From Amphibalanus amphitrite (Eukaryota; Arthropoda; Thecostraca; Balanomorpha; Balanidae), in contig NW_024881501.1 in the NCBI RefSeq assembly GCF_019059575.1, positions 558,001 to 622,000 of the forward strand: 64,000 bases of DNA. The letters run 5' to 3'. The notes beneath the pieces were generated by a model. The model searched no databases and was not told the origin of the DNA. It saw only the letters and a list, made by a program, of their open reading frames with translations. The position numbers were made by a program, and so were the translations under genes. This document shows, in pieces, positions 23,780 through 64,000 of this stretch. The number at the start of each line of letters is the position of its first letter. The first letter of the stretch is position 1.

Positions 23780-23783
23780 GAGG

Positions 23784-23867
<84 letters not shown>

Positions 23868-24012
23868 CAGAGAGACAGAGAGACAGAGAGACAGAGAGAC
23901 AGAGAGACAGAGAGACAGAGAGACAGAGAGACAGAGAGACAGAGAGACAGAGAGACAGAGAGACAGAGAGACAGAGAGACAGAGAGACAGAGAGACAGAG
24001 AGACAGAGAGAC

Positions 24013-24089
<77 letters not shown>

Positions 24090-24699
24090 GAGAGACAGAG
24101 AGAGAGAGACAGAGAGAGAGAGACAGAGAGAGAGAGACAGAGAGAGAGAGACAGAGAGAGAGAGACAGAGAGAGAGAGACAGAGAGAGAGAGACAGAGAG
24201 AGAGAGACAGAGAGAGAGAGACAGAGAGAGAGAGACAGAGAGAGAGAGACAGAGAGAGAGAGAGACAGAGAGAGAGAGAGACAGAGAGAGAGAGACAGAG
24301 AGAGAGAGACAGAGAGAGAGACAGAGAGAGAGACAGAGAGAGAGAGACAGAGAGAGAGAGACAGAGAGAGAGAGACAGAGAGAGAGAGACAGAGAGAGAG
24401 AGACAGAGAGAGAGAGACAGAGAGAGAGAGACAGAGAGAGAGAGACAGAGAGAGAGAGACAGAGAGAGAGAGACAGAGAGAGAGACAGAGAGAGAGAGAC
24501 AGAGAGAGAGAGACAGAGAGAGAGAGACAGAGAGAGAGACAGAGAGAGAGAGAGACAGAGAGAGAGAGACAGAGAGAGAGAGACAGAGAGAGAGAGACAG
24601 AGAGAGAGACAGAGAGAGAGACAGAGAGAGAGAGACAGAGAGAGAGAGAGACAGAGAGAGAGAGAGACAGAGAGAGAGAGAGACAGAGAGAGAGAGACA

Positions 24700-24733
<34 letters not shown>
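23780..24733. repeat. GA/GACA microsatellite, mainly (AGAGAGAC)n
   Basis: It begins as pure (AG)n, passes through a run of 8-bp AGAGAGAC-type units (AGAGACAG phase), then 10-bp AGAGAGAGAC units and mixed lengths, and ends at AGAGG. The 501-codon minus-strand ORF across it (Ser/Leu/Cys/Val only) is a repeat artefact. It lies in the left part of the large hAT. Confidence 0.95.
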
Positions 24734-24734
<1 letters not shown>

Positions 24735-25609
24735 GCCTACCCGTTCACCCGGGGGCCCGGCCCCATCCACCCGGGGGCCCGAGCCCCATCCACCCAGGGG
24801 CCCGGGCCCCATTCACCCAGGGGCCCGGGCCCCATTCACCCGGGGGCCCGGGCCCCGTCCACCCAGGGGCCCGGGCCCCATCCACCCGGGGGCCCGGGCC
24901 CCGTCCAACCGGGGGCCCGGGGGCGGGCTCCATCCAACCGGGCCCCGGGCCCCGTCCACCCAGGGGCCCGGCCCATCCACCCGGGGGCCCGGGCACCGTC
25001 CAACCGGGGGCCCGGGGGCGGGCTCCATCCACCCGGGACCAGGGCCCCGTCCACCCAGGAGCCCGGGCCCCGTCCACCCAGGGGCCCGGGCCCCATCCAT
25101 CCGGGGCCCGGGCCCCATCCACCCGGGGGCCCGGCCCCATCCATCCGGGTTCCGGGCCCCGTCCACTTGGGGGCCCGGACCTCGTCCACCCAGGGGTCCG
25201 GGCCCCATCCACCCGGGGGCCCGGGTACCGTCCAACCGGGGGCCCGGGGGCGGGCTCCATCCACCCGGGACCAGGGCCCCGTCCACCCGGGGGCCCGGGC
25301 CCCATTCACCCGGGGGCCCGGCCCCATCCACCCGGGGCCCGGGCCCCGTCCACTTGGGGGCCCGGACCTCGTCCACCCAGGGGTCCGGGCCCCATCCACC
25401 CGGGGGCCCGGGCACCGTCCAACCGGGGACCCGGGCCCCATTCACCCGGGGGCCCGGGCCCCATTCACCCGGGGACCCGGGCCCCATTCACCCGGGGGCC
25501 CGGGCCCCATCCACCCTGGGGCCCGGGCCCCGTCCACTTGGGGGCCCGGACCTCGTCCACTCAGCCAGGGGTCCGAGCGGCGAGCCCCATCCATCCGGGG
25601 GCCCGGGCA
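24735..25609. repeat. GC-rich minisatellite (GGGGGCCCGGGCCCC units), left block
   Basis: Units of roughly 20-40 bp combine a palindromic GGGGCCCGGGCCCC core with CATCCACC, CATTCACC or CGTCCACC spacers. All frames on both strands are open for long distances because of the repeat (Pro/Gly/Arg/Trp-rich), so I do not call these as genes. The array continues in the same orientation at 40748-40925 and is split by the MULE. Confidence 0.9.
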
Positions 25610-42882: not shown

Positions 42883-45800
42883 ATGCCTTACAAACATCAG
42901 TCTGGTGCCCAGAAGAGGGCACAGAAGAAACAAAGAGCAGAGCAACTACACAAAATTCCAAAGCTAGATAGTTTTGTGAGGTGAGTACTTGAATAGCTTC
43001 ATTTGCACTTGCAGTTCAGCTCTGCAAATGCAAGGAAACCCTTCCCCTTCTTTAGGAAACCCTTCCCTAAATATTCCCAAACTTGGGAAACTATCTACAA
43101 TATTCTATGCTTCATTTCATTCATGCAATTCATAATTTCAGGATGTGTCACACTGTTCAAAAGATGAACTTGACACTTACACTATTGAACCCTGATTCCT
43201 GATTTTTCCCCAAGGCAATATAAAGCTCGGCGATGACATTATACACCTAATTTTGAGAAAAAGGGTGATGGTTAATGTAGCCCTGTTTTTTTTCCTTACA
43301 GGCCTTATCCAAATTCCTCACCAGCAACAAGCTCTCAAGCCGCTGGAGCATGCTCTGGTCACAGCCTTCCAACCCCATCTCCTGATGCATCAAGCAAAGA
43401 TGCTCAGAGCAGCTTAGCATCAACACCCAAGGCCGTCCAGTACAACGAGTCCCCTGATGCCGTATCCGCCCACCCTGGCGATGATGTGGCGGTGCTGGAC
43501 CCACCGGTTGAGCCTTGCGTTCCGTCCGAAGACAGCGATCCTGATCCGATGCCACGCCAGGTGACTTCCGATGCCGTATCCGCCCACCCTGGCGGTGATG
43601 TGGCGGTGCTGGACCCACCGGTTGAGCCTTGCGTTCCGTCCGAAGACAGCGATCCTGATCCGATGCCACGCCAGGTGACTTCCGATGCCGTATCCGCCCA
43701 CCCTGGCGGTGATGTGGCGGTGCTGGACCCACCGGTTGAGCCTTGCGTTCCGTCCGAAGTCAGCGATCCTGATCCGATGCCACGCCAGGTGACTTCCGAT
43801 GCCGTATCCGCCCACCCTGGCGGTGATGTGGCGATGCTGGACCCACCGGTTGAGCCTTGCGTTCCGTCCGAAGTCAGCGATCCTGATCCGATGCCACGCC
43901 AGGTGACTTCCGATGCCGTATCCGCCCACCCTGGCGGTGATGTGGCGGTGCTGGACCCACCGGTTGAGCCTTGCGTTCCGTCCGAAGTCAGCGATCCTGA
44001 TCCGATGCCACGCCAGGTGACTTCCGATGCCGTATCCGCCCACCCTGGCGATGATGTGGCGATGCTGGACCCACCGGTTGAGCCTTGCGTTCTGTCCGAA
44101 GTCAGCGATCCTGATCCGATGCCACGTCAGGTGACTTCCGATGCCGTATCCGCCGACCCTGGCGGTGATGTGGCGGTGCTGGACCCACCGGTTGAGCCTT
44201 GTCCGGGGCCTCCCAGTCGGCTCACCACTGCGGTCACCGTTCCGTCCGAAGGCAGCGATCCTGATCCGATGCCACGCCAGGTGACCTCCGATGCCGCATC
44301 CGCCCGCCCGGGTGGTGTGGTGCATGCAGGGCATGAACTGACAAACCGTGATATTGGTGCTCACATTGGACAGAAAATTACTGATGACAAGCGGTATTTT
44401 CTCCTTAAAAACACGTGGAAACCAGGCAGTGATTATGACTCCAGTCGTTGAGGAAGCTGGTGCGCGGAGACGTTTTCAGCGATCATGGATGGATGGAAGG
44501 GAGTGGCTCGCTTACAGTAGTCAGAAAGGCGGTGGCCTGTGTAAATGTTGTATTCTTTTTGGTGACCATGACACGAAGGGCGTTGGGAAGGGCGGCCATG
44601 TGAAACCCAACCTGTTTGTGACCAAACCCCTGTCAAAGTTCAAAAAAGCGCAAGAAGCAATCCGTTCACACGAATCACTCTCGTACCATGAGCTCAATGA
44701 AGCAAAAGCGTACAGCTTCATCCTCAGTTATGAGGGTAAGAAGGCTTCGGTGGCAGAACAGCTCAGAGACTGTGGTAAAACCCTCGTTAGACGAAATCGC
44801 GATGCTTACATTCCTATGATCGAAACAGTGAAGCTGTGTGGAAGGCAGGAAATAGCACTCCGTGGCCATAGGGATTTCGGACCCATCGAAGAAGAACCAG
44901 AACACAACGACGGAAACTTTAGGGCCCTACTCAGGTTCCGCATGAACAGTGGAGACACTGCCCTGAAAGAACGCCTCAGAGCATGTCCAAGGAACGCGTC
45001 CCTGACAAGCTGGCAAGTTCAAAATGAAATGATCGCGTCGATCGGCCTTCTCATGAGATCTGAAGTCGTGCGAGAGGCGAACGAGAGTGGCCTTTTTAGT
45101 ATCCTCGTGGACGGAACCACCGACATTGCAAACACTGAGCAGCTTGTCCTCTGTGCGAGGTATCTGGACAAAACAAACTGCATTCAGGAAAGGTTCCTAG
45201 GCTACGAGGCTATCCGAGATAGAACAGGAGCGGGCATGGCTAAAACGATTCTCTCAACTCTGGACTCGTACGGCCTACAACTGAGCAAATTGCGTGGCCA
45301 AGGATACGATGGGTGTGCATCAATGAAGGGGGACATAAATGGAGTGCAAGCACACATCAAAGCGCAGCACCCAAAAGCCCATTTTACTCATTGTGCTAGC
45401 CACGTCTTCGCTCTAGTGGTGAGTTATGGGGCTAGAATTCAAGAGGTATCGAAATGTCTTGAGACAATCAGGGAAACAACGAACTTCATCACGGCCAGCT
45501 CAAAGAGATCAGACTGCTTTGAAGAAGCACAGACCGACAGTGAAGTGAAGGCCAAACTGAAAAAAAATTCTGTGAAACGAGGTGGGTCGAGCGTCATGAT
45601 GCGGTGCTGCGATTCATCGAGTGCTACACCCCAGTGGTCACATGTCTGGAGAGCATCTCTGGCTGGTCTGACGCCGTCGCAGCCTCCAAGGCGGAAGCGT
45701 TCTTGGCAGCAGTCACAAAAGACGGCTTTGTCGTAGCGCTCTGCATCGTCGCTAGATTTGCAAATCTACTTCTTCCTATCTCAAAGGCTCTGCAGAGTTC

Positions 45801-46542
45801 AGCCTTGGACCTAGTGGGGTGCATTGAAGAGGTGATGGGACTGCTCACCATCCTGAAAGAACTGCGAGAGAAGTCTGAGGAAGACTTCAAGACTGTCTTC
45901 AGCCGTGCTGAGGAGGTTCTGGGCAGACCTCCAGCAATGCCTCGGATCGCAGGACGCCAACGGAACAGGTGTAACCCACCAAACGTCACAGAGCCAGAAA
46001 TCTACTATCGCATCAGCGTTTATGTGCCATACGTTGATGGACTCATCGCTCAGACAGCCGACAGATTTCAAAATCACGTCAAAGATGCTGCGAAGCTGCA
46101 GTCTTTGGTGCCCCGCAAAGTCTCAACTGAAACATCAGAGAACATCTCCGAAGCGGTAGCCATGTATTTGGATGATCTGCCATTGACCTCAGACGAAGTG
46201 AGCGGTGAGGTGGAAAGATGGGTCCAAAAATGGGTGTCCGATGACTCGGCGCTGCGTCCCAAGTCGTGCGCTGAAACACTTCAGCTTCCAATGATCGCTG
46301 ACTTCTACCCGAATATTGCGTGTCTGCTACGCATACTTGCGACAATCCCAGTCAGTACAGCTACGGCCGAAAGAACATTCAGCTGTCTGCGCCGGCTGAA
46401 AAGCTACCTGCGGTCAACAATGGGTGAAGACCGACTGTCAGGGCTGACGCACATGACCTTGCACAGAAATGGTCTGCCCAGCAACGACGATATTATCGAT
46501 GAGCTAGCAAAGAAACCCCACCGACTGGGACCTCTTACGTAG
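42883..46542 (+). CDS. hAT transposase (TTF/ZMYM-type), two exons, two frame breaks
   Basis: Transposase expected to mobilise the hAT at 23673-47586; acts in the nucleus. Exon 1 (42883-42980) starts MPYKHQSGAQKRAQKKQR and ends KLDSFVR at donor GTGAGT. Exon 2 starts at 43302 after TTCCTTACAG, in frame. It encodes tandem 38-residue repeats, ITDDKRYFLLKNTWKPG, a TTF-like Cys segment (WLAYSSQKGGGLCKCCILFG), LVDGTTDIAN, GQGYDGCASM, TRWVERHDA and the C-terminal hAT dimerisation block with ATAERTFSCLRRLKSYLRS. One frame shift lies near 44430-44455, another at the A-run 45559-45567. They may be real decay or base-calling errors. Family: 52-kDa-repressor/ZMYM-like hAT proteins. Confidence 0.8.
43507..44304 (+). 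repeat. 114-bp in-frame repeat, about seven units, in the hAT transposase
   Basis: GTTGAGCCTTG recurs at 43507, 43621, 43735, 43849, 43963, 44077 and 44191, an exact 114-bp period (38 codons). The unit reads EPCVPSEDSDPDPMPRQV followed by TSDAVSAHPGGDVAVLDPPV: acidic and proline-rich, probably disordered. The last unit is diverged and slightly longer. Because 114 is a multiple of 3, the minus strand is also open for 314 codons, which is an artefact. Confidence 0.95.
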
Positions 46543-53745: not shown

Positions 53746-54103
53746 GGTCGGTGCAGCCTGCAGCGCTTCTGCCACGCCAGTCACCTCTCACTGTGCCTTT
53801 GGCTCCGTTATGCGACTGCCGAATAAGTGATGACTGTGTTGTTTGAACCATAGAGATCCTATACCGCGTGGCCCAGAAAAAAAGGTTCCCAACTTAAAGT
53901 CTATATTTTTTGAAAGGCGTTCAAGATGCAACACTGCCACTTTCAAGGGTCAATGCCAGGGCCGGCGCTGACCTTTTGAAAGAAGGTAGGCACTCGATAA
54001 GGTAAAGCAAAGAATAGAAAAAAATCATGATGAAAAAGTACAAAGAAGAAGTAAAAGTACAACGCAAAGTACAAACTCGCATGCTAGTTAATAGGTACCT
54101 TAA
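53746..54103. other. No gene recognised
   Basis: No coding motif. CAGGGCCGGCGCTGACC at about 53957 looks like another hAT-type end but has no partner. Confidence 0.4.
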
Positions 54104-54140
54104 CAGTGGCGTATCTAGGATTTCGCTCAGGGGGGGGGGG
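54104..54140. mobile_element. Probable hAT terminus (CAGTGGCGTATCTAGGATTT)
   Basis: It closely resembles the right TIR of the large hAT (CAGTGGCGCAGCCAGGATTT) and is followed by a long G-tract. It lies about 0.8 kb beyond the stop of the second transposase gene and is probably its 3' end. The opposite end is not found in the window. Confidence 0.6.
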
Positions 54141-54935
54141 GGGTCCGCAGTCAAAAGGGCCCATGAGTGACCAGGTTGAAAGGGCCCGTATGTGTCAAAA
54201 GGGCCCCATAACCTGAGTTGAAAGCTGTAAAGTAATGCTCATTTTCCATTATGCCGTCGGTGTACTTTCAGTAATTTGAGATACTTGCATTTGACTCAAG
54301 TTATCAATGAAGGGAGCCATGGGCACAAAAAGACAATCTGCGGATACAGGCTTCGATTTTAATTCGTGCTGGTGCGCGGGTATCTGAGCATGTAGGACAC
54401 AAAGTCGACTCACTTTGAACAGACGGAGAAGGCGGTGTACGCGACTTGTCCTTCGTAGGCCGTAGCCCATAGTGGTCTTCTGCAGGGACCGAGCGACAGA
54501 TGCTTAGTCACTGGGACGTCAGCTGAAAAGAAGAACAGAAGAACCATTACTGTTGTGATGTACACTATGTTAAATACTTGTGCTTTTGCATGTATCGTTA
54601 TTGTGCGGTTACTTTCTCTACAATATCTGCAGTGAAACCGGTCCCGTCCAGGCAGCTTTACTGTGGTCCGGGACTTGGGAGTCTGAGTACGGCCGAATAC
54701 ATGTACATGTACATATATAATATAGGTACTCGTATTTTCATCTTTCAGACTGAGAGAAGAGAATGTGCTTGATTCTTGTTCGTTGGTAGATATCAAAACT
54801 GAATAACAATGCATGAGATATGCCTGCCCATTGAATTAAGCAATTTTATAACTGATTTAATAAAAAAATCTAACAAAACTTCTGCGACATTAAAGACGAG
54901 CTAGTTTCTGTAAGCCAGGCATCACGGGATGCTAT

Positions 54936-57336
54936 TTACCGAATCCGACGGTTCTTCGTGCGTATGAAGTTTTCGATGACAGCAGTTGGCGCCGGCACTC
55001 GTTCGGGGTGAACGGACATCATCGCCAGCGCACTGAGACGAACTTCTCCCATCCTGCTCCGTAGCCATGTTTTCAGACGTTTCAATGTAGAAAATGATCG
55101 CTCCACGGACGCAGTTGTTGTCGGCTGGCAGACTGCGATGCGGAGTAGTCCCCATATGAGTGGGAAACAACTCCTGGTGCAGCGCTGGTAGGCAGTGAGG
55201 AAGGTCGTCGGTCTTTCGGATAGTGGCACAGCCGTCCAGAACTCCCTCCAGGTAGCGAGCTCGCCGATCGCAGCTGGTAAGAAGAACGGAGTGAGCAGCG
55301 GTCTGTACTGTTCAACGGCATCACAGAAGAAGCCGTCGTCTGTGTCAGAGAAACCTGGCAGACCAGGCACGAGCCTGCTCAATCTCATTGCTGTTTTTGT
55401 TTGAGAGGAAAATCGCATCTCGAGCTGGTCGATAAGGTCATTCAGGAGAGGCTCATAAACCGTTTTTCGATAGTACGTCTCCGGATCTGCCCCACTGCCC
55501 GACTCCATCACACGTTCTGCCGATCTCGGCACGGACATATCCGGGTCAGGTACTGTCAAGCTGCGTGCCTCCCGTGCCTTGTCGAAAACTCGGTTGAAGC
55601 TTTGCTGGGACACGGCTCGCTTCTCCTTCAGGACTTGTTTTACGGTTTGCACCATTGCCACTCCTCCCGCCAGGTCCTGCTGCTCACCCTGCAGCTTAAC
55701 AGCCAGGGGCCGAGTAATGGCCATCACGTCAACAGTCGCGAATAGGCTAACGGTGAAACCAGTATCGGTGACTGCGGCCAGCAGGGGTCCTGCCTTACCG
55801 GAGCTGTTGGGGTCGGACCACTTGTTGATCTGCTCCAGGGTCAAAATGATGGCTGGGATCAGCTGCGCAAACACGTCTAGCGCATCGTGGCGCTCCACCC
55901 ATCGGGTGTCAGAAAGACTTTTCAGCCGTGTCACAGCGGAAGCCGGGCATTTGTGCCTTACTGCCGCCTCAAAGACAACTTTCCGCTTCGCGCTGCTGCA
56001 CAGAAAGTCGATCACGCTTTTTACCACACCGTACATGTTTCGCACGGCCCGCTGCTTACAGGCTGTAACCAATGCCAGGTTCAGCGAGTGGCTGCAGCAG
56101 TGTACATAAAGAGCCAGTGGGTTTTTCTCGGTGATCGTCGCAGCGGCTCCTTTCACTTCTGAGGACATGTTGGCGGCTCCGTCGTAGCCCTGACCAACAC
56201 ACGAGTTCATGTCGAGTCCGATGTCTTCTACCGCTTTCATAATGAGCTCACCGATGCGCCTTCCCGTTAGTTTTGGCTCGATAACGTCCCCTTCAGCCAA
56301 ACTTTCGAAATCCACGTCGAAAGTTTCTTGGTGCGCATCGTAGAACCCCACAAAGTCCTCGCGGAGTTCTCCGTCGTCAGTCACATACCTCACGACCAGG
56401 CTTAGCTGCTCACAGCATGACACATCAGTGGTTTCGTCAGCGAGGACGGTGAAACACGGTCCGTAGGCGCTGCTGTTTATGTCGCTTACGATGCTTGACG
56501 TCATCATGGTGCCAATGCAGGCGATCAGCTGATTTTGGGTCAGTGCACTGGTGTACAGAGCATTCGCAGCTGCGCTCTGTAGATGCTGTCGAAGACTCTC
56601 ATCGGCGGCGGCTCTGTAACGAAGTATTTCGCGGAAGTTGCCTTCGTTAGTGCCAGAAACACCTCTCACTTCAATCCTGCCACTGTCGCGGTGGCCCCTG
56701 AGAGGAATATTCTGCTTCCCACAGAGGATGACGAGTTCAACGATGGGAAGGAGACGGTTGCGAGCCAGCTGCTCGTCTTTCAGAGCCTGCTCATCAAGCT
56801 GGAACCTGATGTCCTTGCTGGGGTCCTTTTGGGACTCGACGAACTTCGCAGCAGCGGCCACGGCGTCTTTGTGATATGCACGAGAGCAGTGTTTGTCAAG
56901 AACACCAGTATTGTCTTAAGCGTTGAGCTTAGAATACCTCGTCAGGGGGCGTGTTACCAGCGTCCCTGCGGTTTGGCCACAACTGGCAGCACCTACCACA
57001 CTGGGGACGAAAAGTGCACATATGCGACAGAAAACTCCCGACTTCGAGACGGAGTACGCTAGCCACGGGTGTTTTTCAAGTGAATATTGTGTCAGACGTC
57101 GTATCTTCTGTTGCCCCTTTTCAATATGCACAGAGGATGGCCACTTGAAGTTGTGAGGGGGCCTCCACGCGTTTTCTACGATGAAAATCTTATCTGCAAC
57201 GGAGCATGAGCTCATGTAGCGGCCAATGTCATAGGACTTGTGGATGGATGTTCGGGGTGTTTCAACCAGAACGTCCTGCTCCTCGGCGCTGGCGACCGGT
57301 GTGGGCTCGGCTGAGCAGCTCGGGCCTGCGGAGCTC
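54936..57336 (-). CDS. Second hAT transposase terminal exon (catalytic part)
   Basis: 800 codons after the acceptor at 57337-57339. The first ~23 residues are the repeat peptide (SSAGPSCSAEPTPVASAEEQ), then VETPRTS and the TTF-like, DUF4371-like and hAT C-terminal regions. A TAA at 56916-56918 is the only break. The next in-frame ATG (56861) opens 641 codons lacking the zinc finger. Confidence 0.85.
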
Positions 57337-60300
57337 CTGAAACAAACGGTCATTTGCCGTTTTTATAGCCGAAAATGGGATTTTCGTTTCTTTGATGATG
57401 AGGAGTTGACCAGGAAGATACTTCGTCTTTAGATAACCTGGTATTCGGTAAATTATCCAACACAAGCGAGCACAGACAAGCTTCACTTACCGATCGCTGT
57501 GCCCGGCTTCACGTTGTGACGGCGGAGCCAGAACGTCCTGCTCCTCGGCGCTGACGACCGGTGTCGGCTCGGCTGAGCAGCTCGGGCCTGCGGAGCTCCT
57601 GAAACAGACGGTCATTTGCCGTTTTTATAGCCGAAAATGGGATTTTCGTTTCTTTGATGATGAGGAGTTGACCAGGAAGATACTTCGTCTTTAGATAACC
57701 TGGTATTCGGTAAATTATCCAACACGAGCGAGCACAGACAAGCTTCACTTACCGATCGCTGTGCCCGGCTTCACGTTGTGACGGCGGAGCCAGAACGTCC
57801 TGCTCCTCGGCGCTGACGACCGGTGTCGGCTCGGCTGAGCAGCTCGGGCCTGCGGAGCTCCTGAAACAGACGGTCATTTGCCGTTTTTATAGCCGAAAAT
57901 GGGATTTTCGTTTCTTTGATGATGAGGAGTTGACCAGGAAGATACTTCGTCTTTAGATAACTTGGTATTCGGTAAATTATCCAACACGAGCACAGACAAG
58001 CTTCACTTACCGATCGCAGTGCCCGGCTTCACGTTGTGACGGCGGAGCCAGAACGTCCTGCTCCTCGGCGCTGACGACCGGTGTGGGCTCGGCTGAGCAG
58101 CTCGGGCCTGCGGAGCTCCTGAAACAGACGGTCATTTGCCGTTTTTATAGCCGAAAATGGGATTTTCGTTTCTTTGATGATGAGGAGTTGACCAGGAAGA
58201 TACTTCGTCTTTAGATAACTTGGTATTCGGTAAATTATCCAACACGAGCACAGACAAGCTTCACTTACCGATCGCAGTGCCCGGCTTCACGTTGTGACGG
58301 CGGAGCCAGAACGTCCTGCTCCTCGGCGCTGACGACCGGTGTGGGCTCGGCTGAGCAGCTCGGGCCTGCGGAGCTCCTGAAACAGACGGTCATTTGCCAT
58401 TTTTATAGCCGAAAATGGGATTTTCGTTTCTTTGATGATGATGAGTTGACCAGGAAGATACTTCGTCTTTAGATAACCTGGTATTCGGTAAATTATCCAA
58501 CACGAGCACAGACAAGCTTCACTTACCGATCGCTGTGCCCGGCTTCACGTTGTGACGGCGGAGCCAGAACGTCCTGCTCCTCGGCGCTGGCGACCGGTGT
58601 CGGCTCGGCTGAGCAGCTCGGGCCTGCGGAGCTCCTGAAACAGACGGTCATTTGCCGTTTTTATAGCCGAAAATGGGATTTTCGTTTCTTTGATGATGAT
58701 GAGTTGACCAGGAAGATACTTCGTCTTTAGATAACTTGGTATTCGGTAAATTATCCAACACGAGCACAGACAAGCTTCACTTACCGATCGCAGTGCCCGG
58801 CTTCACGTTGTGACGGCAGAACCAGAACGTCCTGCTCCTCGGCGCTGACGACCGGTGTCGGCTCGGCTGAGCAGCTCGGGCCTGCGGAGCTCCTGAAACA
58901 GACGGTCATTTGCCGTTTTTATAGCCGAAAATGGGATTTTCGTTTCTTTGATGATGATGAGTTGACCAGGAAGATACTTCGTCTTTAGATAACCTGGTAT
59001 TCGGTAAATTATCCAACACGAGCGAGCACAGACAAGCTTCACTTACCGATCGCTGTGCCCGGCTTCACGTTGTGACGGCGGAGCCAGAACGTCCTGCTCC
59101 TCGGCGCTGACGACCGGTGTGGGCTCGGCTGAGCAGCTCGGGCCTGCGGAGCTCCTGAAACAGACGGTCATTTGCCGTTTTTATCGCCGAAAATGAGATT
59201 TTCGTTTCTTTGATGATGAGGAGTTGACCAGGAAGATACTTCGTCTTTAGATAACTTGGTATTCGGTAAATTATCCAACACGAGCACAGACAAGCTTCAC
59301 TTACCGATCGCAGTGCCCGGCTTCACGTTGTGACGGCGGAGCCAGAACGTCCTGCTCCTCGGCGCTGACGACCGGTGTCGGCTCGGCTGAGCAGCTCGGG
59401 CCTGCGGAGCTCCTGAAACAGACGGTCATTTGCCGTTTTTATAGCCGAAAATGGGATTTTCGTTTCCTTGATGATGAGGAGTTGACCAGGAAGATACTTC
59501 GTCTTTAGATAACTTGGTATTCGGTAAATTATCCAACACGAGCACAGACAAGCTTCACTTACCGATCGCAGTGCCCGGCTTCACGTTGTGACGGCGGAGC
59601 CAGAACGTCCTGCTCCTCGGCGCTGGCGACCGGTGTGGGCTCGGCTGAGCAGCTCGGGCCTGCGGAGCTCCTGAAACAGACGGTCATTTGCCGTTTTTAT
59701 AGCCGAAAATGGGATTTTCGTTTCTTTGATGATGAGGAGTTGACCAGGAAGATACTTCGTCTTTAGATAACTTGGTATTCGGTAAATTATCCAACACGAG
59801 CACAGACAAGCTTCACTTACCGATCGCAGTGCCCGGCTTCACGTTGTGACGGCGGAGCCAGAACGTCCTGCTCCTCGGCGCTGACGACCGGTGTCGGCTC
59901 GGCTGAGCAGCTCGGGCCTGCGGAGCTCCTGAAACAGACGGTCATTTGCCGTTTTTATAGCCGAAAATGGGATTTTCGTTTCTTTGATGATGATGAGTTG
60001 ACCAGGAAGATACTTCGTCTTTAGATAACCTGGTATTCGGTAAATTATCCAACACGAGCACAGACAAGCTTCACTTACCGATCGCAGTGCCCGGCTTCAC
60101 GTTGTGACGGCGGAGCCAGAACGTCCTGCTCCTCGGCGCTGACGACCGGTGTCGGCTCGGCTGAGCAGCTCGGGCCTGCGGAGCTCCTGAAACAGACGGT
60201 CATTTGCCGTTTTTATAGCCGAAAATGGGATTTTCGTTTCTTTGATGATGATGAGTTGACCAGGAAGATACTTCGTCTTTAGATAACCTGGTATTCGGTA

Positions 60301-62027
60301 AATTATCCAACACGAGCACAGACAAGCTTCACTTACCGATCGCAGTGCCCGGCTTCCCGTTGTGACGGCGGAGCCAGAACGTCCTGCTCCTCGGCGCTGA
60401 CGACCGGTGTGGGCTCGGCTGAGCAGCTCGGGCCTGCGGAGCTCCTGAAACAGACGGTCATTTGCCGTTTTTATAGCCGAAAATGGGATTTTCGTTTCTT
60501 TGATGATGATGAGTTGACCAGGAAGATACTTCGTCTTTAGATAACTTGGTATTCGGTAAATTATCCAACACGAGCACAGACAAGCTTCACTTACCGATCG
60601 CAGTGCCCGGCTTCACGTTGTGACGGCGGAGCCAGAACGTCCTGCTCCTCGGCGCTGACGACCGGTGTGGGCTCGGCTGAGCAGCTCGGGCCTGCGGAGC
60701 TCCTGAAACAGACGGTCATTTGCCGTTTTTATAGCCGAAAATGGGATTTTCGTTTCTTTGATGATGATGAGTTGACCAGGAAGATACTTCGTCTTTAGAT
60801 AACCTGGTATTCGGTAAATTATCCAACACGAGCACAGACAAGCTTCACTTACCGATCGCAGTGCCCGGCTTCACGTTGTGACGGCGGAGCCAGAACGTCC
60901 TGCTCCTCGGCGCTGGCGACCGGTGTCGGCTCGGCTGAGCAGCTCGACTGCGCTCCTGTGATTTCTCTGAAAAGGACAAGTAGTTCATCATTAACTAACA
61001 GAAAGAGTTACAGTAAGGGAGACCAAATTAGTGATTACCGCGTTAATGTCTTGGGGTTGGGAACAATAAATCAATATTGTTTCTAAGTGGCTATCGGTGC
61101 TTTAACCTTACCCAGTTTTTTGTGGTATTGATGAAATGACACTTCAGAGTGATGCTAACTTAGCGGATAGGTTTCTGAATCGCTGCTTTTACTGGAACGG
61201 CCCGCTCGTCTTTTTCGGCCGGTGGCGGTGAGTACTGAGTAGAGATGTCAATTAGATACCAACTTTTCTCATATTCCCAACTCCCAAGTCGGTTCGGTTT
61301 CGGTATTTTCCCATGGTCATTGATGGTATTTGGCTTGGTATGGTATTGGTATCCCGATTTTCTCTGATTAACATCACTAGTAGTGGTGAGTCTGGTGAGC
61401 CGGGTCAAGCATGCAGAAGCGGGTAGGACGGTGGTGTTACCTGGCGGTCGTTTATTGAACTATAAGTAACCTGCACCTATCCCGTAACGACTATGATAAA
61501 AATGTGACGTCTTTGTGCCGCTCCGGCTCGGCTGACAGATAACAAAACTAAAAATTCATTAACTTGAGTTTTGTTATTTCGGCAATTATTACTCGTGTTG
61601 CGTGTTATACTAACCAACACCATGATTGTCTTGCCGTTGGGCGGAAGGTCCCCACCTGTAATTCCTCTCCGGGGTGACCGTTTGGGAGGCGGGCGGACTG
61701 TCCCAATGGGGCAATCCGGTCCCACCAGCGGGACGGTCTCGCCTCCGCGGATCGTTGTCAGTGTCCCGCACAGCCCAATGTTCACGCCCTATCCTCGCAT
61801 TCCATAGCTCTGCAATGGCCCGAAAGAGCTTTCTCCCGAGTCCCAACAAAACAAAAACAAAGATAATGCACCGTAGTCCGTAGTCCGTACCTTGTAAACT
61901 GTAAATTACCATACCTTGTGAAAAGCTCCGAAATAGTTTTAAGCTTCATTTTTTTGGCCACTGAAGATGCGTCCCTTCTGGCTTTCATTTTTCGTTTTTG
62001 AGCGCCTGTTTTTGGTTTCGCTGGCAT
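54936..62027 (-). CDS. Second hAT transposase gene with a tandem exon array
   Basis: A TTF/ZMYM-type hAT transposase. Exon 1 (62027-61915) is followed by a 114-bp exon (60966-60853), thirteen 108-bp repeat exons down to 57491, and a terminal exon (57336-54936). Total 4032 bases, 1344 codons with stop, all junctions in phase 2. The terminal exon carries NAWRPPHNFKWP, a TTF-like segment (HPWLAYSVSKSGVFCRICALF), VLADETTDVSCCEQL, GQGYDGAANMSS, DTRWVERHDAL and the C-terminal dimerisation block with TTASVERSFSTLKRLKTWL. One in-frame TAA (56916-56918) falls between LTRYSKLNA and DNTGVLDKHCSRAYH, so this copy is interrupted or needs readthrough. Otherwise it is intact. Left TIR probably at 54104. Confidence 0.8.
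57491..60966 (-). repeat. Tandem exon-intron array, 14 units of ~258 bp
   Basis: On the minus strand each unit has an acceptor TCTGTTTCAG, a 108-bp exon and a donor GTAAGT with a ~150-bp intron. Exons: 57491-57598, 57753-57860, 58011-58118, 58269-58376, 58527-58634, 58785-58892, 59047-59154, 59305-59412, 59563-59670, 59821-59928, 60079-60186, 60337-60444, 60595-60702, and a first one of 114 bp with a different 5' part at 60853-60966. Each exon begins with 1 base completing a codon and ends with 2, so any number keeps frame. The peptide is SSAGPSCSAEPTPVVSAEEQ followed by DVLAPPSQREAGHSDR (S/C variant near the end). Copies are almost identical. The final exon starts with a fifteenth copy fused to the transposase. 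Confidence 0.9.
60967..61914 (-). other. First intron and upstream part of the second hAT gene
   Basis: Intron between 61914 (GTATGG donor) and 60967 (CCTTTTCAG acceptor). No further exon recognised. The ORFs at 61477-61912 on both strands show no family motif. Confidence 0.55.
61915..62027 (-). CDS. Second hAT transposase exon 1
   Basis: ATG at 62027. It reads MPAKPKTGAQKRKMKARRD and ends KTISELFTR at donor GTATGG, leaving 2 bases. This is the lysine-rich start plus short hydrophobic motif found at the N terminus of this hAT family, and it matches exon 1 of the gene at 42883 in length and layout. Confidence 0.75.
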
Positions 62028-62540
62028 GTTTGCCCCGAGGTAAAAAGAACAGAGGAAAAAGGATGCAGTATTTAATCATCAACCAATGCAGAATCACTCA
62101 AGATAGCGAAGAAGACAGTTTTAACCGGTCTCGTATGACATTACAAAGCAGCACAGCAACGCCAACAACGCCACACTGCAGATGTGCCCCGCGACACCTT
62201 CTGCTGTAGCAGAAAACGCGCGCATTTCTTTCGTCCCGTCTGCGCCATAAACGAAATACATAAGCGTAAAGCGATGGACCTAAAATGCAGCACTTTATGG
62301 CTTCCTTCTTGTTTGGTCCACTAAACGTCATTAAATTTTAATATTCGAGGGGCAATAGCATTGGCTCGCTCTTAGAAATTAATAACTGCATAACTTTTGA
62401 AAAAGTAGTGCTTATTTAACAAGTAACAACTCGACGAGCAAATGTCAGGCAGTGAAGGCCGGAGAGTGGTTGTTAAGGGCTTCGGATAGCTTAGCAGATC
62501 GCTTTGTGCTATAACATTGAGCTTTAAACAAAATAAGCAT
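62028..62540. other. Upstream of the second hAT gene, no ORF recognised
   Basis: About 500 bases between the transposase start and the terminal minisatellite. Probably 5' UTR or promoter, with no motif I can assign. Confidence 0.4.
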
Positions 62541-64000
62541 GCTTATTTCATAGCCTTAAGCCTGCCCTCAGAGGGCCCTCTGGCTGGTGGTCTTAAAGGA
62601 CCCTCAGGCCTCAATCGACCTCAGATGGACCTTTGCTGGCGTCATAAGGTCTCCGTTAGCCTGAAAGGGTCCTCCAATAGTCCCAAGGGGCCTTCTATTC
62701 TCCTTAAAGGCCCTGAGTCAGCCTAAGAGGGCCATTCAGTGGCCTCCGAGGGCACTCTTTGTCCTCAGAGGGCCTGTCATACGGCTCAAGGACCAAGGTG
62801 GCCTGAAATAGCCTTCATTTCACTGCTGAGGGCCCTCCAATGACCTCAGAGGGCCCTATATTTGCATCATTACACCTCTTTGAGTCCTCGGAGAGCCCTC
62901 TTTGAGATGGCTGAGAGGGCCCTCTTTGATCTGAGATGGCCTGATGACCTCGTAGGGCTCATGAGGTGGCCTGAAATCACCTCAGCAGGCCCTCCAGTGG
63001 CCTCAAAGGGTCCTGTTTTTGCATTAGAGGGCTCTCTGTGGCTTCCGAGGGCCCTTTTTGATCTCAGAGGGCCCTCGTTGATCTCAGAGGGCTCTTTTTG
63101 ACCCTTCGAGTTGTCTGAGGGGGCCCTCTGGCCTCTGTTTGCCTAAAAGGGCCCTCTATTCGCCTCAGAGGGCCCTCTGTTCGACTCCAAGGGCCCTCTG
63201 GTGACCTCAGCGGACCCTATTTTTGCATCAGAGGTCCCTCTGTGGCCTCCGAGAACCCTCTTCGATCTCAGAGGGCCCTCTTTGATCTCAAAGGGACCTC
63301 TTTGAGGTGGCTGAGAGGGCCCTCTGTTTGCCTCAAAGGGCCCTCTGGCTCTGTTTTCCTAAAAGAACCCCCCATTCGCCTCAGGGGACCCTCTGTTCGC
63401 CTCAGAGGGCCCTCTGGTGACCTCAGGGGGCCCTATTGTTGCATCGGAGGGCCCTCTGTGGCCTCCGAGGGCCTTTTTTATCTCAGAGGGCCCTCTTTGA
63501 CCTCAGAGGGTTCTTTTCGACCTATTCGAGATGTCTGAGAGGGCCCTCGGGGCCTGAGAGGGCCCTCTGAGTGCCTGAGAGGGCCCTCTGAGTGCTTGAG
63601 AGGGCCCTCTGAGTGCCTGAGAGGGCCCTCTGGGCTCTGGCCCCCGTTCGTCTCAGAGGGTCCCTTTATTCGCCCCTTCAGAGGGCCCTCTGTTTGCCTC
63701 AAAGGGCCCTCTGTTTGCCTAAAAGGACCCCCTATTCGCCTCAAAGGGCCCTTTGGTGACCACAGGGGGCTCTATTGTTGCATTGGAGGGCCCGCTGTTG
63801 CCTCCGAGGGCCCTTTTTTATCTCAGAGGACCCTCTTTGACCTCAGAGGGCTCTTTTCGACCTATTCCAGATGTCTGAGAGGGCCCTCGGGGCCTGAGAG
63901 GGTCCTCTGGGCCTGAGAGGGCCCTCTGAGTGCTTGAGAGGGCCCTCTGAGTGCCTGAGAGGGCCCTCTGAGTGCCTGAGAGGGCCCTCTGAAAGCCTGA
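62541..64000. repeat. GAGGGCCCTC minisatellite running off the window
   Basis: The palindromic core AGAGGGCCCTCT recurs dozens of times at roughly 20-45 bp spacing with CCTCAGA / CTGTTCGCCT / GTGACCT spacers. It becomes regular (22-bp CTGAGTGCCTGAGAGGGCCC units) near the end. Two higher-order blocks (about 63230-63640 and 63650-63990) resemble each other. Repeat ORFs are not genes. Confidence 0.9.

Follow-up and report, generated by a model that had tools for sequence, protein, structure and literature searches.

Tandem phase-symmetric exon cassettes in a DUF4371 hAT transposase gene of Amphibalanus amphitrite

Transposase genes are commonly regarded as compact. A 64,000-nucleotide stretch of the Amphibalanus amphitrite genome (contig NW_024881501.1, positions 558,001 to 622,000; here called the window) raises the question of what 14 near-identical exon-like units are doing in front of the catalytic region of a transposase gene, and whether they form part of the protein or are a repeat lying within an intron.

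Anatomy of the array and of its host element

The gene lies on the minus strand, and its predicted exon 1 (61915 to 62027; 113 nt) reads MPAKPKTGAQKRKMKARRDASSVAKKMKLKTISELFTR, a basic stretch followed by KTISELF, and closes in phase 2. Intron 1 (60967 to 61914) is predicted to run from a GTATGG donor to a TTTCAG acceptor. Between 60966 and 57337, sequence reading recovers 14 cassette exons bounded by TTTCAG acceptors and GTAAGT donors, every one of them in phase 2-2. The first (60853 to 60966) is 114 nt long and has a 5' end of its own; the other 13, within 57491 to 60702, are each predicted at 108 nt and read RSSAGPSCSAEPTPVVSAEEQDVLAPPSQREAGHCD or close variants (60702-60595, 60444-60337, 60186-60079, 59928-59821, 59670-59563, 59412-59305, 59154-59047, 58892-58785, 58634-58527, 58376-58269, 58118-58011, 57860-57753, and 57598-57491). 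The 14 cassette introns (57337 to 60852) measure 150 nt in 11 cases and 154 nt in 3, all with GTAAGT...TTTCAG. The terminal exon (54936 to 57336) contains the last partial repeat, a CxxC region, DUF4371, and the hAT dimerization domain. The first-pass annotation had described 14 phase-symmetric exons with these lengths, phases, and splice sites, and its description was borne out to the base. Its in-frame model was likewise confirmed: predicted exon 1, the cassettes, and the terminal exon join into 1344 codons with one internal stop at codon 684, the sole in-frame TAA of the terminal exon (56916 to 56918), besides the terminal stop. The cassettes contribute 506 residues by translation of the predicted exons, close to the 510 estimated earlier. 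Tandem Repeats Finder places the array at 57266 to 60946 (period, 258; 14.2 copies; match, 98%), and the unspliced 258-base unit contains stops in every frame.

The array belongs to a complete hAT element of 10,210 bp on the minus strand, which occupies 54104 to 64000 of the window and runs on to 64313, its right end lying 313 bp beyond the window (C4:622313). Its terminal inverted repeats (TIRs), CAGTGGCGTATCTAGGAT and CAGTGGCGTATCCAAGGG, share an identical first 12 bp, CAGTGGCGTATC, and fall within the 10 to 25 bp given for the superfamily (PMC3942097); the one on the gene's 3' side spans 54104 to 54121. An exact 8-bp target site duplication (TSD), TACCTTAA, as expected of a hAT insertion, flanks both ends (54096 to 54103, and 64314 to 64321 outside the window in L050). 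A scan for TIRs by 16-mers confined to the window returned none because the right end lies outside it; the ends were later recovered with a TIR probe from a sister element, L041, and 1.5 kb of sequence past the window. Degenerate repeats of about 20 to 21 bp resembling GAGGGCCCTCT form a 5' subterminal array within the element (62721 to 64000, continuing into L050).

The assignment to hAT made in the first pass is supported by these ends together with two domain matches above their cutoffs, PF14291 (DUF4371; E value, 2.7e-18; 67.1 bits against a cutoff of 32.1) and PF05699 (hAT C-terminal dimerization; E value, 4.9e-10; 39.5 bits against a cutoff of 21.4). The gene carries DETTD, GQGYDG, CCSHSLNL, and ERSFS, with counterparts in L041, a statement about motif presence that carries no inference on activity. 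We take DETTD, GQGYDG, CxxH, and ERSFS to be the hAT catalytic D, D, and E and CxxH motifs.

When the 258-base unit was compared with the 807.55-Mb assembly, all 15 matches belonged to the window array or to the beginning of the terminal exon. A 301-base probe covering that beginning matched in full once, at the window locus itself, and produced seven short matches within the array (the search skips very common words). By these two probes the window copy appears to be single in the genome and, being also stop bearing, it cannot alone show function.

Array variation in a sister family

The L041 element is 8,958 bp long and contains 13 cassettes of 129 nt in phase 1. With splicing as predicted, its exon 1, cassettes, and terminal exon form an uninterrupted open reading frame of 1343 amino acids that includes DETTD, GQGYDG, CxxH, and ERSFS. 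Equal-phase repeated exons, introns with splice sites, and a single frame are found together in both L041 and the window element. Three insertions of the L041 family (L041, L044, and L045) have distinct TSDs (GTGGCGGT, CGTGCTGT, and GCTCTGTC), homology between them stops at the TIRs, and their longest shared blocks are 99.4 to 99.9% identical, which, as far as sequence can tell, shows that this array-bearing family transposed recently. The insertions contain 13, 8, and 6+3 cassettes. The proposal that array length can change without loss of frame is upheld indirectly, by sister insertions with unequal cassette numbers.

Counted by unit match, seven loci, belonging to the L041 family or its diverged relative, contain 0, 0, 6, 8, 9, 13, and 15 cassettes, three of these loci having been fully read. 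The relative with 15 cassettes is at C322:229975-234059. At two loci of the family, C16 and C329, the search matched unit positions 64 to 216 only. L041, L044, and L045 each open with a partial unit, that of L041 being a 52-nt exon that would be out of frame if spliced in; 3 of the 30 cassettes in these insertions have lost a splice site (GT at two L045 donors and AG at one L044 acceptor); and the terminal exons of L044 and L045 are broken.

Recurrence of leader arrays in other hAT families

The phase-symmetric exon array noted in the first pass stands as a real sequence feature; with other repeats, the cassette layout recurs in three families, one of them with an uninterrupted frame. In L026 and L031 the tandem exon array was recognized by exon phase and length. 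Cassette exons measure 315, 243, 243, and 243 nt in L026, 315 and 243 nt in L028, and 129, 246, and 207 nt in L031; L027 has exons of 246, 243, 216, and 243 nt and one split by an insertion. The acceptor AG is lost in one of five in L026, exon 1 and the terminal exon of L028 are frame-shifted, and exon 1 was looked for in the L027 region and not found. The exon 1 layout of the window gene recurs in L041, L026, and L031. By eye, the repeats of the window, L026 to L028, and L031 arrays are unlike one another.

All 57 uninterrupted cassette exons measured have a length that is a multiple of three: 14 in the window, 30 in L041, L044, and L045, 4, 4, and 2 in L026, L027, and L028, and 3 in L031, excluding the insertion-split first cassette of L027 and the incomplete units with which the L041, L044, and L045 arrays begin. 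The informative exons for this rule are those of families with several lengths. Intron lengths within the same arrays step by 4 nt (150/154), 7 nt (118/125), 3 or 7 nt (163/166/170), and 10 nt (252/262).

A second hAT gene with DUF4371, part of a separate element, lies on the plus strand of the window (43486 to 46542, with the frame broken further on), and has for a leader a coding minisatellite of 114-bp units (43456 to 44201; 6.5 copies; 98%) that shares the frame of the region preceding the zinc finger. Of 22 regions surveyed, 20 were hand-picked from the match list, favoring long open frames and before the arrays outside the window were seen, and 2 were those in the window. L032 (no transposase match) and L024, L025, L033, L035, L039, and L043 (without the N-terminal part) were dropped; arrays do lie nearby in L025 and L033. 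The 16 remaining copies form 12 families, all with a PF14291 match over the cutoff, L030 plus and minus being joined by their common best relative only. Leader arrays were found in 8 of these 12 families with a readable N terminus, 4 as exon-intron cassettes and 4 as coding minisatellites, of which those of L029, L040, and the second window gene continue into the transposase frame and that of L036 lies in a separate stretch with an inferred junction. This compares with about 0.21 arrays per random 1.3-kb interval (P = 7e-4), the control being the eight arrays in the rest of this one 64-kb window, outside its two elements. With at least 149 dimerization-domain and at least 114 DUF4371 matches in the assembly, the survey took in a minority of elements.

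On the tree, the cassette label must change twice, either gained on both occasions or gained once and lost once; the branches of L041, L040, and the second window gene are long and their placement is graded unsure, and 18 public proteins with an unread leader stand outside the count. The best reading is that arrays arose more than once. Among public proteins, none of 7995 scored candidates matched a 683-residue model of the N-terminal part, in a search that also missed relatives sharing the model's zinc-finger part. The catalytic part of L041, used as a query, returned 19 relatives, long leader repeats being present in none and a short one in P0126, and a simple score found leader repeats in 3 of 138 related proteins.

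Interpretation and significance

The arrays are probably best explained as amplified, phase-symmetric linker cassettes of a hAT (DUF4371) gene, variable in length and, we infer, spliced in and translated. With symmetric intron phases (2-2) on either side, the frame stays open whatever the number of cassettes, and the array can therefore change length without killing the gene. We propose that the second exon, which encodes a Ser/Pro/Glu-rich and presumably disordered linker joining the basic N-terminal peptide to the zinc-finger region, was amplified in tandem together with its intron. The array would then expand and contract through unequal exchange, or through slippage during gap repair after excision, and would be homogenized in the process. 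Long linkers may be tolerated or favored, several hAT families of this genome having built arrays of their own at this position.

An ordinary minisatellite inside a leader intron, spliced out whole and with an open frame inherited from an ancestral exon and not maintained, would account for several of these observations, and we consider it unlikely. Skipping of the whole array, with exon 1 joined directly to the terminal exon, also keeps the phase, so that the frame does not prove translation, and the residues appear to be without constraint: diversity among window units is 0.0161 in exons versus 0.0119 in introns, with two synonymous and four nonsynonymous changes, and shows no sign of purifying selection, and of the six variable sites among 24 L041-family exons, five fall on codon positions 1 or 2. 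Splice sites are lost in four cassettes of sister copies, C16 and C329 match the unit as if they were without any full cassette, and minisatellites are common, as the eight arrays outside the window's two elements attest. Such an array is, however, not expected to show exon length differences that keep the frame (315, 246, 243, and 216 nt in L026/L027; 129, 246, and 207 nt in L031; 114 and 108 nt in the window) beside intron length differences that are mostly not multiples of three, nor does it account for an open-frame leader repeat in four further families (L029, L040, the second window gene, and L036).

A regulatory role, in which the units serve as monomers of a promoter or enhancer, or as a brake on splicing that lowers full-length transposase as cassettes increase, seems to us very improbable. 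TATAAAA occurs in the window introns (13 of 14 read CTATAAAA and one reads CGATAAAA), and mouse L1, with its monomers, is an earlier example of promoter units in tandem; TATAAAA is absent from the L041 unit as read, and the promoter-monomer reading was set aside on that ground. For a brake, a retained cassette intron would end the protein within a few codons, and full-length transposase would thus fall with copy number. Reading the donor in frame in L026, L031, and L041, we found that a retained intron leads to an immediate stop in the first two, as in the window element, and to a stop within six codons in L041. Immediate stops arise from every phase-2 intron whose donor is of the GTAAGT type and are therefore not evidence of design, and a regulatory array has no need of exons in multiples of three. 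That cassette number was inflated or collapsed in assembly is scarcely credible: the units are near-identical and 14 is a count in the assembly, yet they differ at 13 variable sites in mosaic combinations, three carry a 4-bp insertion, the same layout with different repeats is found in four cassette families on different contigs, and arrays are present in three insertions with different TSDs.

Translated linker cassettes, the reading we prefer, have partial parallels elsewhere. Titin PEVK and collagen are host genes with tandem phase-symmetric exons whose number can vary with the frame kept; they are structural and not mobile, whereas the present units are alike to about 98% and their number varies from one insertion to another within a single transposon family. 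Mouse LINE-1 has 5' arrays of monomers of about 200 bp that vary in number between copies, but these are noncoding promoter units of a retrotransposon, without exon-intron structure. Among hAT elements, BuT2 of Drosophila buzzatii (Tip group) resembles the window element in its DUF4371 and hAT dimerization domains, short TIRs, 8-bp TSD, and multi-exon gene; it is 2,775 bp long with five predicted exons and a 643-amino-acid protein, in contrast to 10.2 kb with 14 tandem cassette exons in the window element and 9.0 kb with 13 in L041, both of which exceed the 2.5 to 5 kb typical of the superfamily, a descriptive range (PMC3942097). Merlin elements judged recently mobile share internal tandem repeats and size variation of the 5' region among copies; they belong to another superfamily, and the available part of the source places the repeats in divergent 5' and 3' regions, with no description of them as exons or cassettes (PMC8101967). 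The first-pass annotation knew of no hAT with such an array, and at the level of search results the literature on hAT elements, repeats, and exon arrays likewise yielded none, nor any description of tandem exon-intron cassettes in a transposon.

Here, then, is a transposon gene with 13 to 14 tandem cassettes and, in the sister family, arrays that are carried along by the element, cassette number varying from insertion to insertion. The L041-family series makes the birth, homogenization, and loss of symmetric exon arrays traceable over a short time, something difficult to achieve in old host genes. A further proposal, tentative and in our view unlikely, is that the arrays are self-adjusting: each cycle of excision and repair could set anew the length of the linker, the mixture of isoforms, and the output of transposase, making the array a tunable, repeatedly evolved part of the transposon instead of passive satellite DNA. 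A retained cassette intron would in that case yield a short peptide, with only the basic, PIP-like N terminus and some repeats, that might act as a brake. If the cassettes do affect activity, they would give a transposon a new means of varying its own dose.

The cassette array and its element

The hAT gene on the minus strand of the window contains 14 cassettes, each an exon with its intron, at 60966-57337, as read from splice sites and lengths. The first-pass annotation had described cassettes of ~258 bp with GTAAGT donors and TTTCAG acceptors, and these are present throughout: one exon is 114 nt and the other 13 are 108 nt, with introns of 150 nt (n = 11) or 154 nt (n = 3) that all run from GTAAGT to TTTCAG. 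Exon 1 (62027-61915, minus strand) ends in phase 2, and the terminal exon contains the DUF4371 and hAT dimerization domains. With predicted splicing, joining exon 1 through the cassettes to the terminal exon yields a frame of 1344 codons with one internal stop, as had been claimed, and the proposed addition of about 510 Ser/Pro/Glu-rich residues is close to the 506 counted, in which S, A, P, and E are abundant. Thirteen variable sites are shuffled among the units, and distance does not rise steadily with separation, as would follow from a mixing of units by exchange or conversion.

CAGTGGCGTATCTAGGAT marks the left end of the element at 54104, and CAGTGGCGTATCCAAGGG its right end at 64313; because each is flanked by TACCTTAA, this is a complete hAT element, and its 10,210 bp amount to two to four times the superfamily length stated in PMC3942097. 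Probing the 807.55-Mb assembly with the unit and with the first part of the terminal exon, very common words being skipped, revealed no further locus. No transposon with tandem exon-intron cassettes was found in the literature on hAT elements, repeats, and exon arrays, in a coverage lying mostly outside subscription journals, and the accessible parts of PMC8101967 and PMC3942097 make no mention of such cassettes. Elsewhere in the window (23780-25560), a GA-rich microsatellite of 955 bp is closely followed by a CCCGGG-rich 23-bp minisatellite of 35 copies. Tandem-repeat units are also shared by 30404 and 35040 (4.6 kb apart) and by 32409 and 37772 (5.4 kb apart), which suggests a duplicated stretch of several kilobases.

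Leader arrays across hAT families

Twenty of at least 149 hAT dimerization matches in the assembly were sampled as ten-kilobase stretches; the choice, made by hand, favored long open frames and preceded the first sighting of an array beyond the window. A readable N terminus was available for 16 copies in 12 families, the two window genes included, and all 12 families had a DUF4371 match above the cutoff. The leader, the region preceding the zinc finger, contains a tandem array in 8 of these 12 families. Exon-intron cassettes occur in the window gene, L026 to L028, L031, and L041, while single-frame open minisatellites form the leaders of L029 (63 nt), L036 (30 nt), L040 (102 nt), and the second window gene (114 nt); the L036 array forms an open stretch of its own, and we infer how it joins the transposase. 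Leader arrays are absent from the families of L030, L034, L037/L038, and L042. Random 1.3-kb window intervals outside both elements meet an array at a rate of 21%, giving a P of 7e-4 for 8 of 12, and arrays open on a given strand at a rate of 16%, giving a P of 1e-4, a comparison that is not like for like because a cassette array as a whole is not open; both control rates derive from just eight arrays.

The second DUF4371 hAT gene (43456-46542, plus strand) has a coding leader minisatellite of 6.5 copies of 114 bp, each unit encoding 38 residues, that abuts the zinc-finger region, and its frame is broken further on. Short leader tandem repeats were also seen in 3 of 138 related public proteins (P0109, 17 residues; P0033, 23; P0126, 16), and leader repeats are therefore not limited to this genome.

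Exons or plain repeats, and changes in array number

Are the cassettes exons, or are they plain repeats? The strongest sequence argument for exons is their length, which is divisible by three in every one of the 57 uninterrupted cassette exons that were measured, including those of unequal length within families (315, 246, 243, and 216; 129, 246, and 207; 114 and 108), whereas intron lengths within those arrays vary by 4, 7, 3 or 7, and 10 nt. L041 retains AG and GT in 13 of 13 cassettes, and with predicted splicing its frame runs for 1343 amino acids before a stop and contains the hAT motifs. Plain repeats, however, would also fit residues that bear no sign of constraint and the decay seen in several copies. 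The frame would also survive the skipping of one cassette, as the first-pass annotation had proposed, or of all. L045 has lost two donors and L044 one acceptor, which makes 3 cassettes with a lost splice site among the 30 of L041, L044, and L045, and in L026 1 of 5 acceptors is gone; moreover, a partial unit opens every L041-family array and in L041 would be out of frame if taken as an exon. The splice-site losses in sister copies and the completed exon count pull in opposite directions on the exon reading, and its likelihood is unchanged by the two together.

The copies L041, L044, and L045 represent separate insertions: their 8-bp target-site duplications differ, and homology among the three stops at the terminal inverted repeats. 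They carry 13, 8, and 6+3 cassettes, respectively, a stricter pattern having detected fewer in L044 and L045. Match coordinates alone give 2+4 cassettes for an L041-family copy on contig C1223, 15 for a diverged relative on C322 (83 to 84% identity), and only positions 64-216 of the L041 unit on C16 (G000:C16:633116-633266) and C329 (464961-465109), remnants suggestive of an array that has lost its last full cassette. In the L026 family the arrays have 4, 5, and 2 cassettes, and an insertion splits one cassette of the 5.

Origins and possible effects

When cassettes are mapped on a tree built from 32 transposases, the label has to change twice, either by being gained both times or by one gain and one loss. 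A well-supported group unites the window gene with L031 and L026 to L028, and L041 falls outside it, on a long branch. Intron phase agrees with separate origins, since L041 has phase 1 whereas L026, L031, and the window gene have phase 2. The window, L026, and L031 families may have inherited one linker exon that each amplified separately.

In relatives with a leader, the zinc-finger region is frequently preceded by a Ser/Pro/Glu-rich stretch, which itself follows a short basic peptide. In the first 60 residues of P0001 to P0120, a PCNA-binding-like motif, Q..[ILMV]..[FY][FYL], was seen in 16 of 66 related proteins with a leader (0.3 expected by shuffling), and degenerate versions of it (KTISELF, KVSDFF, KKLDQFF, and KKLDSFLF) stand at the end of exon 1 in the arrayed elements. 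Degenerate arrays of 20- to 21-bp repeats, GAGGGCCC-, GGAGGCCC-, or CAGAGGG-like, lie 5' subterminally at several loci (window 62721-64000, continuing into positions 1-72 of L050, the stretch past its right end; L041 22-341; L028 1655-2012). Their unit approximates two helical turns, and they are possibly transposase binding sites.

Unequal exchange and slippage during gap repair after excision are sources of repeat-number change and could supply the changes in cassette number; symmetric introns would leave exon number free to vary, and a Ser/Pro/Glu-rich linker could grow longer without folding problems. A retained cassette intron would bring a stop after a few codons in the window gene and, with donors read in frame, in the three other cassette families as well; for this reason the arrays may affect the transposon through a cost of splicing or through truncated peptides made when introns are retained.
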